Source of the DNA: Deltaproteobacteria bacterium RBG_13_61_14
GTDB lineage: Bacteria > RBG-13-61-14
Direction: 5' to 3'
DNA length: 12,291 nucleotides
NCBI GenBank assembly: GCA_001797815.1
Contig: MGQK01000090.1
Location: 48,051-60,341 of the forward strand
Shown here in pieces: positions 273-12,291 of the stretch. Positions within the stretch are counted from its first letter, which is position 1. Every line of letters starts with the position of its first letter. A program made the translations under genes and the position numbers. Under the pieces are notes generated by a model that saw nothing but the letters and a program-made list of their open reading frames with translations, made no database searches and was not told the DNA's origin.

Positions 273-1871
273 CTAAGCACATGCGATTGACATTCCCACC
301 CCATCCACCAAGGCCCGGTAGGCTTTCTCCACCCGGTCCCAGTTGGATTCCCGGTCCAGCGCCCAGAATCTTCCCATCACCGTGACCACTTCTCCTAATC
401 CCAGCCTCGCGCACTCCGCTTCCACTTTGGCGATGTAGTGGGCCCCGGCCTCGGGTCGCTCGCCGCGCCGGCCGAGGAGCGAGTGGATGAACATTTGGGG
501 CACGCCCTGGTTCTTGGCCATGTGCATGAGGGCGAAGAGGTGGTCGAGGGAGCCGTGGGAAGAGAAGAAGCTGACGATGCCGAGCAGATGCAGGGGCCGG
601 TTTTCTTTCTTGGCCAAGTCCATGGCCCAGAGGAAGGCCGGGTTCCGGTAATAGGAGCCGTCCTCCAGCGCGCGGTCAATGCGGAGGCGGTCGGAGTAGA
701 GGATGCGGCCGGCGCCGAGGTGGAGGTGCCCGGCCTCGGAGTTGCCCACCGTATTTTTGGGCAGACCCACCGCTTCGCCGCTGGCCCAGAGGGTGGTGAA
801 AGGATGTTCGGCGCGCAGCCGGTCCATGACCGGGGTGCGGGCCTCAAGGATAAGGTTGCCGTCCGGGTCGTCGCGATGGCCCCAGCCGTCGGCGATGAGG
901 AGCAGCACCCGCCGGGGGCGGGTTACAAACCCGCCCCCACTTCTTATGATCAGGGAGGCGCCGGTCATGGCCGCGGGCTTTTCCAGGGCCAATAGCTCCA
1001 GCACCGTGGGCGCGACGTCAATCAGGCTCCCGCCGGGGCGCAGGCGCGCGCCCTCGGCTTCGAGCGCGGCGTCGAGGAGCACGCAGGGGACCGGATTCTT
1101 GGTATGGCCGGTGTCCACCGCGCCTTCGGGGTAGAGCCACTGCTCCACGGTTCCGTGGTCCGCGGTGAGGAGCACGGTCACTCCTTCGGTCCTGGCTGCT
1201 TCGATTACTCGTCCGATTTCGCGGTCCACGGTCTCGATCGCCTGGAGCACCGCCGGCTTGTTCTCAATATGGCCGACCACGTCCACGTTGGCGAAGTTGG
1301 CGATGAGCAGGCTCCAGCGGGGGTTGGTGAGGCAGGCCAGGGTCTGGTCGGCCACGTCCGCGGCCCGCATCTGGGGCCGCGCGTCGTCATTCTTCGCGTC
1401 TTTGTGCGACTCGATCACCCGGCGCTCTTCCCCGGGGAAGCGCGGCTCGCGCTTGCCGCTGAGAAAATAGCCGAGGTGGATGGCCTTTTCCGATTCCACG
1501 ATCTTGACCTGAAAGAGCCCGGCCCGGCTCACGACCTCGCCCAAGGTATCGCGGAGCAATTCTTGGGGCGGGAAGGCCACCTGCTCGGCCAGGCCGGGCG
1601 CATACTCGATCATGGTGGCCAGTCGGACCGGGCCGGCCGTGGCAAAATGCGGGAAACGAGGGTCGGTCAGGGCTTGCGAGAGCTCGACCTCCCGCTCGCC
1701 CCGGATGTCGTAAAAGATGACCGGGTCGCCGGGCCGGATCGGGCCGCGGGGCCGGCCCTCGGCATCGAGGAGCACGCGAGGGTTCAGGGCCTCGTCTTCC
1801 TCGCCGGCGGCGTAGGCCGCCCGCACCGCTCGAGCCAGGGGGCCGAGCGGAGGGTCGGGAGGGGAGTTCAT
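273..1871 (-). CDS. Circularly permuted cofactor-independent phosphoglycerate mutase
   Basis: The 532-residue product contains every conserved block of 2,3-bisphosphoglycerate-independent phosphoglycerate mutase (3PG to 2PG, Mn-dependent, cytosolic; usually about 510 residues), but in permuted order. Residues 12-308 match what is normally the middle to the C-terminus: AAYAAGEEDE, IRGER (R57, R60), SEK (K129), ANFANVDVVGH (D197, H201), TADHG (D238, H239), GH256, then APTVLELL and MTGASLI. Residues 320-526 match the normal N-terminus: LLIADGWG (D328), GNSEAGH (nucleophile S378), SSHGSLDHL (H439), GRFWALDRESNWDRVEKAY (R501, R507). The new termini fall between RVEKAYRALVDG and ARAVRAAY, normally a linker inside the phosphotransferase domain. 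All metal ligands and the serine are present. The substrate-loop GRD reads RRG, losing one Asp. The ATG overlaps the upstream lipoprotein stop (ATGA) and has no clear ribosome-binding site, suggesting translational coupling. The stop is TAG. It is probably an active enzyme, but specificity is uncertain. Confidence 0.88.
   Translation of the reverse strand: MNSPPDPPLGPLARAVRAAYAAGEEDEALNPRVLLDAEGRPRGPIRPGDPVIFYDIRGEREVELSQALTDPRFPHFATAGPVRLATMIEYAPGLAEQVAFPPQELLRDTLGEVVSRAGLFQVKIVESEKAIHLGYFLSGKREPRFPGEERRVIESHKDAKNDDARPQMRAADVADQTLACLTNPRWSLLIANFANVDVVGHIENKPAVLQAIETVDREIGRVIEAARTEGVTVLLTADHGTVEQWLYPEGAVDTGHTKNPVPCVLLDAALEAEGARLRPGGSLIDVAPTVLELLALEKPAAMTGASLIIRSGGGFVTRPRRVLLLIADGWGHRDDPDGNLILEARTPVMDRLRAEHPFTTLWASGEAVGLPKNTVGNSEAGHLHLGAGRILYSDRLRIDRALEDGSYYRNPAFLWAMDLAKKENRPLHLLGIVSFFSSHGSLDHLFALMHMAKNQGVPQMFIHSLLGRRGERPEAGAHYIAKVEAECARLGLGEVVTVMGRFWALDRESNWDRVEKAYRALVDGVGMSIACA
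914..938. repeat. Perfect palindrome (11-bp arms) inside the mutase fusion linker
   Basis: GGGGGCGGGTT (914-924), a 3-base loop, and AACCCGCCCCC (928-938) form a perfect inverted repeat. On the coding (minus) strand it encodes residues 312-320 of the permuted mutase (GGGFVTRPR), exactly between the old C-terminal block (MTGASLI) and the old N-terminal block (LLIADGWG). GGGGCGGGTTTGTAACCCGCCCC-like palindromes are, to my knowledge, common dispersed repeats in environmental bacterial genomes, so this may be an inserted repeat that became coding sequence. Confidence 0.75.
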
Positions 1872-2884
1872 GGTTTGGCCGCGGAGGAAGGGGACAGTTG
1901 GTCGAAGGGCACGATCACCCGGTAGAGCTTGTAGGCATCCGCCGGGGTGGTGCCGATGGCGGAGACCACGATGCCGTCAAAGTCCTCGCGGTATTCGGGG
2001 AATTTCTGATCCAGGAACTTCGCGAGCTCTTTGCCGTCGGCCTCCAGGCCGGCGGTATCGGTAAAGGACTTGGCCTGATAGGTAACATCCACCCAGATTT
2101 TGTTATTGGCGGAAATCACGCTCAGGTTGGAGACGTTGTAGGAATGGCCCGAAGGCATGCTCCAGATCTGGACACTCCCCTGGGGCAAATAATCGGCTTT
2201 GATCTGCTTCATCTCGGTGGCAATCTGGGAGACGGTGAACTCCTGCACCCCGGGGCCGAGTTCGGAAAGGAGGATGGCCATCCGATATTGCAGCGCGGCC
2301 AGGTGCAAGAGGTTCTTTTCCCGGCTTTTCCGTGCCGCCTTGAAATAGGATTCCGCTTCCCGGCCTTTGGCGGTGGAAGCATTGATCGCCAGGGAAAGCA
2401 ACTTCCAGCCGCCTTCCTCCTTGAGCAAGTGCAGGACCACCCGGAGCGTCTCGTCGGCGCCTTGGCTCTTGTAAACCAGCGCGGCGACCTCGTTATTGGC
2501 CGGAACCATATGCAGATCCTGCACCCCTTGCGCGCCCAGGTTGCACGGGATCACCGCCTCCTCTTCCCGGGCCTTGCTGCTCATCCAATATAACTCTTCC
2601 AACCGGCTGAACTCCTTGGCGCCGAAACTGTCGTCCGCCGCGCGAAGCAAGGTCGCAAATTGCTCGCGGGTCTGCCGGCGTTTGAGCATCTGGCTGGCAT
2701 CCTGATACAGGGCGGGGTATTCGCTGTTTTCCCATTCCTGGATCAAGCGGCCGCCCGCCTGCATGATCTCGTCCTGGGTGGGCTCCGCAATATCATTGCC
2801 GTAAACGCACGAAGTTTGGGGGGTCTTGTTGCGGCATCCCATGACCAGCACCAGGATCCCGGCCATTAGCATCGCTTTCTTCAT
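1868..2884 (-). CDS. Predicted lipoprotein of unknown function
   Basis: The 338-residue product starts MKKAMLMAGILVLVMGC, a lipoprotein signal peptide: two lysines, a hydrophobic run, and lipobox VMGC with the acylated Cys at 17. It should be anchored to a membrane facing outward. I chose the ATG at 2884 because a GGGGG run lies about 11 bases upstream. A TTG at 2893 would be almost on top of that run. Residues about 45-170 look like a compact NTF2-like domain of the DUF3887/DUF4019 type (helices, then a strand pattern ...VVLHLLKEEGGWKLLSL), but the match is weak. Residues about 180-235 are helical (ESYFKAARKSREKNLLHLAA), followed by a mixed C-terminal domain. It follows the DUF4405 gene by about 80 bases and overlaps the mutase start by 4 bases. 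I do not know its function. Confidence 0.75.
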   Translation of the reverse strand: MKKAMLMAGILVLVMGCRNKTPQTSCVYGNDIAEPTQDEIMQAGGRLIQEWENSEYPALYQDASQMLKRRQTREQFATLLRAADDSFGAKEFSRLEELYWMSSKAREEEAVIPCNLGAQGVQDLHMVPANNEVAALVYKSQGADETLRVVLHLLKEEGGWKLLSLAINASTAKGREAESYFKAARKSREKNLLHLAALQYRMAILLSELGPGVQEFTVSQIATEMKQIKADYLPQGSVQIWSMPSGHSYNVSNLSVISANNKIWVDVTYQAKSFTDTAGLEADGKELAKFLDQKFPEYREDFDGIVVSAIGTTPADAYKLYRVIVPFDQLSPSSAAKP

Positions 2885-2965
2885 TAGCTTCAATTCCCCC
2901 TTTTCATGCGCATCGGTCTCCCCCCGCCGGCGGCAACGGCACCCGCCCGCCCGGTTCAGACCGCG

Positions 2966-3894: not shown

Positions 3895-6675
3895 ATGAAG
3901 CCCTTCCGTTCCAGCGCAAACCGCTCCGGCCGGCAAGTGCTCGCCGCCGGCTTGCTCTACCTGGTCCTGCTGGGCACGGTCTTTGTCCCCAAGTGGCTTT
4001 CCGGCTATTCCTTCCTGACCGAGGTGATCTGGGACCCGACCCCGGTCTACCTCCAGTATCCGGGCGACCTGGTGGCGATCCGCACCCTCCAGGCCGGGCA
4101 ACTGGGCGGACTCTGGGACCCCACCCGCGGGTTCGGCACCCAGCACTTCATCCCCATCTATCTCACCTACTTCCTTATCCTCAAGCTCCCCGTCTATCTC
4201 TGCCACGCCCCCTGGGCCTGGGAAGCCTACCTCCTGGTTCGGCTGCTCCTGGCCGGGGTCTTCACCTTCCTCCTCGCCCGCAGCCTGCCCCTCCGTTTTC
4301 TCCCCGCGCTTTTCGCCGGCATGGCCTACATGCTCTGCGGCTACTTCCGCATCTTTCTCAATTTTCAGCACCTCAACCTCGAGGTCTTTTTCCCCGCTCT
4401 GCTCTGGAGCTTACTCCTCCTGGCCCGCCGGCAGTCCCTCGGGCGGGTCTTCGCCGCCCTTTTCTTCATCATCCAAATGTGGGCCAGCGGCAACCCGATG
4501 TCATTTGTTTATGCAATCCTGCTCGGCGGCGCTTTCAGCCTGTTCCTGGCCGCGCTTGCCGCCCGCCGCTCTTCCCGACCCCTGCTGATCCTGGGCTTTG
4601 GCCTTGGCCTCTATCTCTTTCTTTGGTCCCTCAGCTGGTTCGGGGCCGCCCATGGCTTTGCCGCCGTGGAATTGAGCGGGCAGGTCTGGAAACTGCGCCT
4701 GCCCGGGATCGGCCAACTGCGCATTCCCCTTGCCAACCTGGTGGCCTTGGTTACACCCATCTTCGATTATTGGCTCTCCCCCCTGCCCTCCACCCACGAC
4801 GCCCGACTCGCGCTGCTCAACTTCGTGCCCGGTTACCTGGGGATCATCGTCTCCGCCCTGGCCCTGATCGCCATCCTTCATCCCGGCCGTCTTCCCCGGG
4901 TGGGCCTCTTCTTTATCCTGGCTTTGCCCTTTAGCCTGGGGCTGGTCTTCGGAATCCCTCCCTTCAACCTCCTCCAAGGGCTGCCCGTGCTCCGCGAATT
5001 CCAAAATTTCCGTTACGCCCAATCCCTGGTCGCGCTCCCCGCGGCCCTGGCCGCCGGAATGGGACTTCACCTGTTCCTGGCTTCCCCCGCGCCCATTCCC
5101 CGTCGAACCACCGCGATTCTGGCCGTGCTCCTGGCTTGGGTCCTCTGGCATTTCATCGGCTACCGCCACTTCCTGGCCGCTTCTCCCTTGCCGCTCCGAT
5201 TCCTGCTCGGCGCCGGCCTGGTCCTCGCCCTCGCCGGACTTTTTCTTTCCGCCGCCCGCTTCGGGTTCAGAATCACTTCCGGGCGGTCGCTTTTCGGCCT
5301 GGCTTTGCTCGCGATCGCGGCGGGTGAAGGAATTCTTTATTTTTACTTGATCACCCCGCTCTATGGCCCGCGGGCGTTCTCCGTGGCCGAGCCGCCGGCC
5401 GCCGCCTGGCTTCAGTCCCAACCGGGCTGTTTTCGCCTCTTGGGCGTGGAACCCGAGTCGCTCCACCCCAACCTGGCCGGGCTGTTTCATTTAGAAGACG
5501 TCCGGGATTCAACTCCCCTCTATTTCCGGCGCTACCTTAAGTTTATCGCCGCGATCGCCGGACTGAATTCCGAACGCGCCATTCTGGACCATTATTTCGA
5601 GAAGGGGCGGTTTTACCTGAGCCTCGATCTCCATGAGCTCCCGCCCCGTCTGCTGGACCTGATCAACGTGCGCTACCTGCTTACCCAAGAAGCCCGCGAC
5701 CGCCTGGCCCTGGCCTTGGCCGACCCTTTAGCCCGCGGGCTTATGCCCCAAGGAGGGACTCACTATCTCGCCGCCCTCGAGGCAACGCTCGGCGGAGTCC
5801 GCCGCTCGGCCCTTCTCACCCACGCGCCTTCACGGGCCGAACTCATTCTGCCCGCGGCCGCGAGCCGGACCCTGGTCTGGGAAGTCGGCATCCTGCCCCG
5901 GGCACGGGAGAATCCCAAAGCCGACGGCGCCTGGTTGATCGCGGCTCTACCCGGCCCGGCCGGCTCGCGCCTGGTCTTCGGCCGGTTCCTCAACCCTCAA
6001 CAGAAAGCGGCCGAGCGGAACTGGATCCGGATGGATGCCCACCTCCCGCTCGGGAGCCGGGAGATTGTCTTTGGCTCCTTGCCGGGTCCGCGCGACAACC
6101 GCGAGAGCGATTTCGCGGTCTGGGGAGAGCCGGGGTTATGGCAGGCCGACACTTGGAGGAATCTGAAGGAGGTTTACGATCGCGATTTGCGCATCTATGA
6201 AAACCAGACCGTTTTGCCCCGGGCCTTCTGGGCCAGGCGCGCCGAATGGCTCTCGAGCGACGAGGAGGTATTGGACCGCTTAACCGGCGAAGGCTTCGAT
6301 CCCGGGCAACTGGTCCTGGTCCACGCCCGGCCGCCTTGGCCGGAGCCCGAGTCCGAGCCGGGGCCGGCGGAAGTGGAACTGGTCGAGCATGATTTCGGCA
6401 GGGCGCGGGTCAAGGTGCGGGCTCAGGGCGCGGGATGGTTGGTCCTCACCGATCTCTATTATCCGGGATGGGAAGCGCGGGTGGATGGGAAAGAGGTCCG
6501 GATTTATCCGGTGGATGTGGCCTTTCGGGGACTGCCGCTCCCGCCCGGCGAACACGATATCCTGTTCCGTTACAACCCGCCCATGGTGCACATGTCCCTC
6601 TGGCCGATGCTGCTCTCGTGGTCGCTGGCTTTCCTGGTTCTTGTCTTTAAAAAGCTTTTTTCACCCGAAAGATAG
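3895..6675 (+). CDS. YfhO-family multi-pass membrane protein (GT-C-like)
   Basis: The 926-residue product has about a dozen membrane spans between residues 14 and 490 and near 905-922. The first outer loop holds WDPTPVYLQYP (46-56) and GLWDPTRGFGTQ (72-83), typical of YfhO and related GT-C-fold proteins, where acidic residues in the first loop bind lipid-linked sugar. Residues about 500-850 form a large soluble domain outside the membrane. Near 850-900 is the characteristic end: TDLYYPGWEARVDGKEV, then LPPGEHDILFRYNP, before the last span. Its length is close to the Bacillus YfhO (about 860). YfhO proteins are implicated in glycosylating envelope polymers such as lipoteichoic acid. The acceptor here is unknown. 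The nearby polyprenol-phosphate sugar synthase could supply its donor. There is no strong ribosome-binding site before the ATG. The 3' end overlaps the convergent GT39-like gene by 29 bases. Confidence 0.83.
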   Translation: MKPFRSSANRSGRQVLAAGLLYLVLLGTVFVPKWLSGYSFLTEVIWDPTPVYLQYPGDLVAIRTLQAGQLGGLWDPTRGFGTQHFIPIYLTYFLILKLPVYLCHAPWAWEAYLLVRLLLAGVFTFLLARSLPLRFLPALFAGMAYMLCGYFRIFLNFQHLNLEVFFPALLWSLLLLARRQSLGRVFAALFFIIQMWASGNPMSFVYAILLGGAFSLFLAALAARRSSRPLLILGFGLGLYLFLWSLSWFGAAHGFAAVELSGQVWKLRLPGIGQLRIPLANLVALVTPIFDYWLSPLPSTHDARLALLNFVPGYLGIIVSALALIAILHPGRLPRVGLFFILALPFSLGLVFGIPPFNLLQGLPVLREFQNFRYAQSLVALPAALAAGMGLHLFLASPAPIPRRTTAILAVLLAWVLWHFIGYRHFLAASPLPLRFLLGAGLVLALAGLFLSAARFGFRITSGRSLFGLALLAIAAGEGILYFYLITPLYGPRAFSVAEPPAAAWLQSQPGCFRLLGVEPESLHPNLAGLFHLEDVRDSTPLYFRRYLKFIAAIAGLNSERAILDHYFEKGRFYLSLDLHELPPRLLDLINVRYLLTQEARDRLALALADPLARGLMPQGGTHYLAALEATLGGVRRSALLTHAPSRAELILPAAASRTLVWEVGILPRARENPKADGAWLIAALPGPAGSRLVFGRFLNPQQKAAERNWIRMDAHLPLGSREIVFGSLPGPRDNRESDFAVWGEPGLWQADTWRNLKEVYDRDLRIYENQTVLPRAFWARRAEWLSSDEEVLDRLTGEGFDPGQLVLVHARPPWPEPESEPGPAEVELVEHDFGRARVKVRAQGAGWLVLTDLYYPGWEARVDGKEVRIYPVDVAFRGLPLPPGEHDILFRYNPPMVHMSLWPMLLSWSLAFLVLVFKKLFSPER

Positions 6676-10703: not shown

Positions 10704-10711
10704 TTCACCTC
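10704..10711 (-). promoter_or_regulatory. Ribosome-binding site of the immunity candidate overlapping the Rhs stop
   Basis: On the minus strand TGAGGTGAAATAATG contains the Rhs stop (TGA, 10712-10710), a GAGGTG Shine-Dalgarno and the ATG at 10700. This supports a coupled toxin-immunity pair. Confidence 0.65.
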
Positions 10712-12291
10712 ACTTATAGCCCCTCTCCGTCATTTGGAAAAGGGCGTCTTCCCTGGGATTCCATTTTTGATACTCTGATATACAATACAAATCATATGGA
10801 GATAATGCTTTGTTGCTAATACTTGTTATAAACCCCTCACTATTAATTCTATTCATAACATTCATGCCCTCAAAAGAAGTAATATAGGCAATACGGTGAG
10901 ATATAACCCAATGCTCAATGGCAGGAATATTGAGGTCTGAAAAATAGCTAGGACGAATATCAAATTTATAAATCCAATTGCCCAACTCATATTGAATATC
11001 ATAATTAATTTCACCTTTGGTAAATAAAAAACGATGAAATGGAATTTTAATACTATAAGGACCACTACTATTAAAAGAATTAGAATAAGGCACTGGGAGA
11101 CGTGCCTCTTTACGTGATATAAGCTCTATTCCTACATTATGTTCCTTAAGATATCTTGCAATGTCAGGATGTTTGGCTGCCCATTCGGTCTTAATATAAT
11201 TATTCGCTTGCTCTATTGTGCGGAAACCACCGAAAAGGCCTCTTGGCTTATCAGATCCAACCTTGGGTAAATTTGTATTGCCTGTTGCTGAAGAAGTTAC
11301 AATGCTCGAAAGAGCTGATTTATCTCCCTGCGCCGCTTGAATAACGACAGGAGCTAAGGAAGACGGCGAATTGCTCGGAGATGCACTTGTCGCCGCGGGT
11401 GCGGAAACCTGATGCCCGGCCATGCCTCCGGCCACTGCTCCCACTACTCCACCGATAGCCATCCCGAGTAGGCCGCCAAAGGCAAGTCCCGCCAGCACCC
11501 CGGTTAGAAATCCCCCTACGCCTCCTAAAAAGCTACCGGAGCTAAATACACCTTCAAATGAACTCGCAATGTCCGTAAAAGTAGATGCAAAATCAATGCT
11601 CATTCCAATGTCCATCCAGTGACCAGTAGGATCCGTGAACTTGAAGGGGTTGTTATTCACATAGCTGAAGCGGTTAAAGGATTGGGAGTCAGTCGCGCTG
11701 GGAACTACAGTGTCGGCTTGGATGAACCTGCCCAAATCCGGGTCATAAAATCTAGATTGATAAAAATACAAACCGGTGGTGCGATCCACCTCTTGACCCG
11801 TATAAGAGTTCTTCCAAAGGGCATAGCCATAATCTGGAAGCGGCAGGATCGGATCGCTGCTTACCCATCCTTCCAGCATCTTTCCAAAGGGGAGATAGTT
11901 AGTGTATTGGTAAATGGTTCCATCTGCCCTGGTTACTAACCTCGTGCTTCCAAGCTGGTCCGTATGGAAGTAAAGAGTATCCTTCAGCAACACCGCGGCT
12001 TGAGCTTGCCTTGGCCCAAACAGCTTCTTCGCCTTCTTCAGGCTATTCCAATTGTCAAAGAACTCTTTAAAGAACTCTTTAGTAAGCCGACTAGTGGGGA
12101 TTTTAGCCCCTTGATATTGACTTGTCAAGACCGATTTTAAAGCGCCATAAATCTCCTGCTTGAACAATGGGTTATCGGCCATGAAGTTGACGAGCGGGCT
12201 CGGGGAGAACTCCCAAACCAACACCACCAAGATCAGTAAGATGAAACTATTTCGGAAGGGATGTCTTCGAAATCCCGGTCCGGTAAAGACC
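10710..12291 (-). CDS. Rhs-repeat core protein with variable C-terminal tip (putative polymorphic toxin), 5' partial
   Basis: The frame is open to the window edge; 526 residues are visible. Counting from the TTG at 12230: a hydrophobic segment lies just before and at 1-6 (FILLILVVLVW, probable membrane span). Residues 72-206 are the Rhs-associated core: GPRQAQAAV, FHTDQLGSTRL (88-98), YLPFGK (112-117), SYTGQEVDRTTGLYFYQSRF (142-161), YDPDLGRFIQ (162-171), then RFSYVNNNP and DPTGH. Residues 233-272 are a glycine-zipper hydrophobic stretch (GGVGGFLTGVLAGLAFGGLL...), possibly a membrane-insertion element. A Ser/Pro/Ala linker follows (273-330). Residues 331-506 are the tip, encoded by AT-rich DNA and matching no toxin family I know. 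Core plus foreign tip plus a following small gene is the standard polymorphic-toxin layout. The visible part may be only the end of a longer Rhs protein, or a short 'orphan' core. Confidence 0.82.
   Translation of the reverse strand, partial: VFTGPGFRRHPFRNSFILLILVVLVWEFSPSPLVNFMADNPLFKQEIYGALKSVLTSQYQGAKIPTSRLTKEFFKEFFDNWNSLKKAKKLFGPRQAQAAVLLKDTLYFHTDQLGSTRLVTRADGTIYQYTNYLPFGKMLEGWVSSDPILPLPDYGYALWKNSYTGQEVDRTTGLYFYQSRFYDPDLGRFIQADTVVPSATDSQSFNRFSYVNNNPFKFTDPTGHWMDIGMSIDFASTFTDIASSFEGVFSSGSFLGGVGGFLTGVLAGLAFGGLLGMAIGGVVGAVAGGMAGHQVSAPAATSASPSNSPSSLAPVVIQAAQGDKSALSSIVTSSATGNTNLPKVGSDKPRGLFGGFRTIEQANNYIKTEWAAKHPDIARYLKEHNVGIELISRKEARLPVPYSNSFNSSGPYSIKIPFHRFLFTKGEINYDIQYELGNWIYKFDIRPSYFSDLNIPAIEHWVISHRIAYITSFEGMNVMNRINSEGFITSISNKALSPYDLYCISEYQKWNPREDALFQMTERGYK
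11868..12098 (-). repeat. Intact copy of the Rhs core direct repeat
   Basis: This stretch (PTSRLTKEFF through PFGKMLEG of the Rhs protein) is the partner of the broken copy at 9982-10209. Both lie in the same orientation and flank the AT-rich tip and the immunity candidate. Recombination between them would remove about 1.9 kb containing tip and immunity gene. Confidence 0.8.
12057..12080. repeat. Tandem 12-bp duplication in the Rhs gene
   Basis: AAAGAACTCTTT occurs twice in tandem (12057-12068, 12069-12080), encoding the repeated FFKEFF region. The core remnant has only a single, mutated unit. The change is in frame (four codons). Confidence 0.75.

Follow-up and report, generated by a model that had tools for sequence, protein, structure and literature searches.

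A circularly permuted protein of the cofactor-independent phosphoglycerate mutase fold in a deltaproteobacterial genome and its relatives in several phyla

In canonical cofactor-independent phosphoglycerate mutase (iPGM) the N-terminal part of the phosphatase domain is followed by the transferase domain and then by the C-terminal part of the phosphatase domain. A gene in the genome of Deltaproteobacteria bacterium RBG_13_61_14 (GCA_001797815.1, contig MGQK01000090.1) encodes a protein of this type with the C-terminal part first and the N-terminal part last. Is this order a natural circular permutation, and what reaction does the protein catalyze? Below, the window means the whole stretch of DNA that was analyzed (12,291 nucleotides, contig positions 48,051-60,341).

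Gene, predicted fold and relatives

The gene lies on the minus strand, an orientation not given in the earlier note on this DNA. The features of the locus are as follows (window coordinates).

273..1871, minus strand: permuted iPGM-type gene, a single open frame of 532 aa plus stop, with an ATG start
942..1832, minus strand: first part, aa 14-310, corresponding to iPGM residues 219-511; the rest of the transferase domain, then the phosphatase metal ligands
915..944, minus strand: linker RSGGGFVTRP (10 aa by the 1ejj alignment) from the old C-terminus to the old N-terminus
914..938, no strand: 25-bp palindromic DNA GGGGGCGGGTTTGTAACCCGCCCCC (0 expected by chance), encoding most of the linker
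291..914, minus strand: second part, aa 320-527, corresponding to iPGM residues 4-211; Asp328 (D12), catalytic Ser378 (S62) and the substrate-domain half
450..473, minus strand: family motif GRRGERPE (aa 467-474), with GRRGE in place of canonical DGRD(T/M/V); Gly470 stands at Asp154 and Glu471 at position 155
1868..2893, minus strand: upstream lipoprotein-like ORF of 341 aa without a Pfam match, its stop overlapping the ATG of the permuted gene (ATGA)

The two halves, whose separate alignment had been proposed earlier, each matched iPGM, in swapped order: a phmmer comparison with the Bacillus stearothermophilus enzyme (PDB 1ejj) paired query residues 15-310 with chain residues 219-511 (197 bits) and query residues 320-527 with chain residues 4-211 (188 bits), residues 213-510 of the Bacillus protein preceding residues 4-211. 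The metal ligands of the first part are Asp197, His201, Asp238, His239 and His256 (D403, H407, D444, H445 and H462 of 1ejj). The TIGR01307 model scored 456.6 bits (cut-off 330.65) as two stretches in swapped order, and the Pfam Metalloenzyme (PF01676) and iPGM_N matches were likewise swapped or split, PF01676 being split. By the alignment the ring is complete, each parent segment occurring once and none being absent or doubled; the new ends lie at approximately 1ejj 211/213, in a loop within the transferase domain. The join between the old ends stood as described earlier; its length, put at about 12 residues, is 10. In other members of the family the linker comprises 4-15 aa, and 57 aa in one genome (G623). 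Among the fetched loci, the window gene alone has a palindrome-bearing linker, and no second copy of the palindrome was found there. The palindrome, lying within coding sequence, resembles an inserted REP-like element.

The AlphaFold model, for which the window protein was submitted with two permuted homologues and the halves of normal loci, has a confident iPGM fold (pLDDT 93.1, pTM 0.90). Residues 9-309 of the model superpose on residues 213-510 of substrate-bound 1ejj with an rmsd of 2.2 Å over 294 residues (Z 22.7); as the aligners are sequential, the fold search against solved structures covers only the first 309 residues. The superposition on Bacillus GpmI suggested in the earlier note thus succeeded for the first part; for the second part, the predicted fold has the support of the sequence and of the confidence of the model. 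The protein would presumably fold as modelled in the cell.

The database search for the same order revealed 31 genomes with the same cut, patchily spread over several phyla including that of the window. Both other genomes of the window's phylum examined gave a contiguous permuted match (59-60% identity), and identity for the first four permuted homologues compared was 52-60%. Scanning 84,980 species genomes for gpmI yielded 80 loci, 78 in normal and two in permuted order, the latter from an Armatimonadetes MAG (L009) and a Deltaproteobacteria MAG (L010). A profile built from five permuted sequences was then searched in further genomes, and permuted-order matches were found in 7 of 291 genomes in the phylum of L009, in 16 of 395 in the phylum of L010, and in 5 of 383 more distant genomes. 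In one genome (G279) the gene is in two pieces at a contig end, and in G623 the match is split by the long linker; 30 permuted sequences were usable for residue counts and trees. No relative was found on the viral contigs searched, and the best ten matches listed from plasmids were all two-piece, with 38-42% identity. The permuted form is therefore a real, old family rather than a one-off.

Active site and probable reaction

Residues were compared in 1ejj numbering between the 30 permuted and 78 normal sequences. The nucleophile and the metal ligands, seven residues in all (D12, S62, D403, H407, D444, H445 and H462), are kept in all permuted proteins. Nine residues that contact the substrate of iPGM have been enumerated (PMC3886921). 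Eight of them (S62, H123, R153, R185, R191, R261, R264 and K336) are retained in 30/30 permuted sequences; the ninth, Asp154, is Asp in 78/78 normal sequences and Gly in every permuted one. Position 155 is Glu throughout the permuted set, and further fixed or nearly fixed changes include D151G, G152R, D263E, A265E, N68H, G121S, V122S, Y337A (29/30), G409E and N447T/S. To judge from these alignments, the pocket has changed uniformly across the family, which goes beyond anything claimed earlier. Glu155, beside Gly154, could make up for the missing Asp154 carboxylate; alternatively, the pocket may be adapted to a different acid.

The protein is likely an active iPGM-type phosphotransferase. A phosphoglycerate-like acid bound in the active site would pass its phosphoryl group to Ser378, activated by two metal ions, so that phosphoserine is formed; the acid would then turn in the closed cleft and regain the phosphate, the net reaction most likely being the interconversion of 2- and 3-phosphoglycerate or that of a close analogue. 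For 2-/3-phosphoglycerate mutase itself the balance tips only slightly in favour. Counting against it are the replacement of Asp154 by Gly with the nearby fixed changes, and the presence of another mutase gene: apgM was found above the cut-off, in at least one copy, in all five permuted-gene genomes checked, and the NF003160 equivalog is present in three genomes (G001, G002 and G004). The window genome (4.74 Mb, 95% complete) has the permuted gene as its only gpmI-like gene. The second, normal gpmI or gpmA that the earlier note had suggested looking for was sought in the same five genomes; no normal gpmI was found, and no gpmA above the cut-off, which counts in favour of the mutase reading. 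Since apgM is present in all five, phosphoglycerate mutation is covered without the permuted gene, and the permuted enzyme therefore need not be the glycolytic one. However, the archaeal-type iPGM occurs in many bacteria, often beside another phosphoglycerate mutase, e.g., in Deltaproteobacteria (PMC2964296), so that its co-occurrence with the permuted gene is weak evidence either way.

The main alternative is that the same permuted fold and phosphoserine chemistry act on another small phosphorylated acid, apgM serving glycolysis. Such a role would fit the substitutions fixed in 30/30 sequences (among them D154G, G152R, D151G and the Glu that stands for T/M/V at position 155), the presence of apgM in all five genomes tested and the patchy distribution of the permuted gene; on the other hand, eight of nine substrate contacts are retained, the carboxylate of Asp154 might be supplied by the new Glu155, archaeal-type iPGM accompanies another mutase in many bacteria, and the neighbouring genes give no pointer to another pathway. 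We consider this alternative possible but less likely than the mutase reading. Of similar probability is a bolder reading, in which the permutation and the fixed changes of the Asp154 loop would mark a new family of enzymes that acts on a substrate, or catalyzes a reaction, of its own, one ancient permutation away from iPGM and patchily distributed over several phyla, with apgM doing glycolysis. The reading we favour, with reasonable rather than strong confidence, is that of an ancient iPGM-fold family, derived by a single permutation (see below), which would use the phosphoserine chemistry of iPGM, probably on 2-/3-phosphoglycerate or a close analogue. The name phosphoglycerate mutase given in the earlier note is, as a functional label, likely, though not secured.

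Origin of the swapped order

In a whole-protein tree of 30 permuted and 37 normal sequences, the permuted proteins form one side of a branch with 100% support. Trees of each half alone recovered the same, fully supported permuted clade, and mean identity to normal iPGM is about 39% in each half. Two half-genes of different origin might also have been fused, and the order of C-part followed by N-part is by itself compatible with such an event. However, the cut falls inside a domain, no part of the ring is absent or doubled, and, because both halves are equally distant from normal iPGM and give the same branch, a single permutation is favoured and a two-source fusion is disfavoured; the half-wise trees speak against it, and it is very improbable. 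One ancient permutation of one gene is the simplest history of these sequences. The normal order is common to phosphopentomutase and ApgM, fellow members of the Metalloenzyme family, and the permuted order is therefore derived. It may have arisen by tandem duplication and trimming, the kind of route that the earlier note calls usual; no intermediate form was encountered.

That a normal gpmI was merely rearranged during assembly or binning is more improbable still: short N gaps in the contig just downstream and, at a distance of 1.7 kb, a decayed and incomplete copy of the 3' end of the gene might raise such a suspicion, but the frame is intact, the interior of the gene is free of N or gaps, and the identical order and cut in 31 genomes with differing neighbourhoods rule it out. 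The N gaps start approximately 270 bp downstream of the stop (L003 11991-12051).

Each segment thus occurs once, the shift is cyclic, the old ends are joined and the origin is single, as in a natural circular permutation, and we are all but certain that the product of the window gene is a natural circular permutant with the iPGM fold. The earlier note had argued for a true permutation with a cut inside a domain, rather than a fusion of fragments; this agrees with the segment order, the complete ring, the confident predicted fold, the half-wise trees and the 30 additional genomes that share the order and the cut.

The downstream copy of the 3' end (75-127 bp, 84-88% identity to the gene's 3' end) was considered as a possible remnant of a duplication from which the permuted gene arose and was ruled out: the family is much older than this copy, which lies in a partly duplicated toxin-antitoxin-like patch, and is a young local event. 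The patch (L003 10485-10611 and 11284-12275, mostly beyond the window) contains small toxin-antitoxin-like genes with internal duplications, the 3'-end copy and several short N gaps.

Related enzymes and genomic neighbourhood

With iPGM (GpmI/GpmM; TIGR01307; PDB 1ejj, 1o98) the permuted protein shares the fold, both domains, the metal ligands, Ser62 and eight of nine substrate contacts, but it differs in the permutation at approximately 1ejj 211/213, in the change of Asp154 to Gly in the GRRGE motif and in its separate, fully supported branch. Because the domain order and one substrate contact deviate, it is classed not with canonical GpmI but in a permuted family that is sister to iPGM. ApgM (TIGR00306, NF003160/PRK04135) belongs to the same alkaline phosphatase-like metalloenzyme superfamily, has the same nominal reaction and occurs in the same genomes; in contrast to the permuted protein, it has the normal order of metal ligands and a length of about 400 aa, and the similarity between the two is weak and local (28.5 bits with TIGR00306, cut-off 320), which places the permuted protein outside ApgM. 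Phosphopentomutase (DeoB; PDB 3m7v, 3twz) shares the metalloenzyme core, with a Z of about 11.5 over 170-174 residues, but has a different cap domain and substrate, and the normal order.

No naturally permuted iPGM was found in our literature search, in which coverage of subscription journals and preprints was thin; the earlier impression that no such form had been described therefore held, and the family is apparently undescribed. It provides about 30 natural examples of an evolutionarily kept cut inside the moving transferase domain, which bears on the opening and closing of iPGM, and on how circular permutations arise and survive. It is also a warning for annotation: permuted proteins score as ordinary GpmI, yet lack one substrate-contacting residue.

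The neighbourhoods of the permuted gene differ between genomes, and no neighbour recurring across lineages was found from which a function could be derived. A similar lipoprotein-like ORF adjoins the gene in two other genomes of the order (three in all), a macrodomain protein is encoded directly downstream in five genomes of one clade (L196, L186, L189, L185 and L195), and a 2-hydroxyacid dehydrogenase gene follows in two close genomes. Elsewhere in the window, an ORF on the minus strand (10710-12290) combines YD/RHS-repeat-associated core motifs (GLYFYQSRFYDPDLGRFIQADT) with a variable C-terminal part and has no Pfam match over threshold, and a large membrane protein of 926 aa with a YfhO match is encoded on the plus strand (3895-6675).
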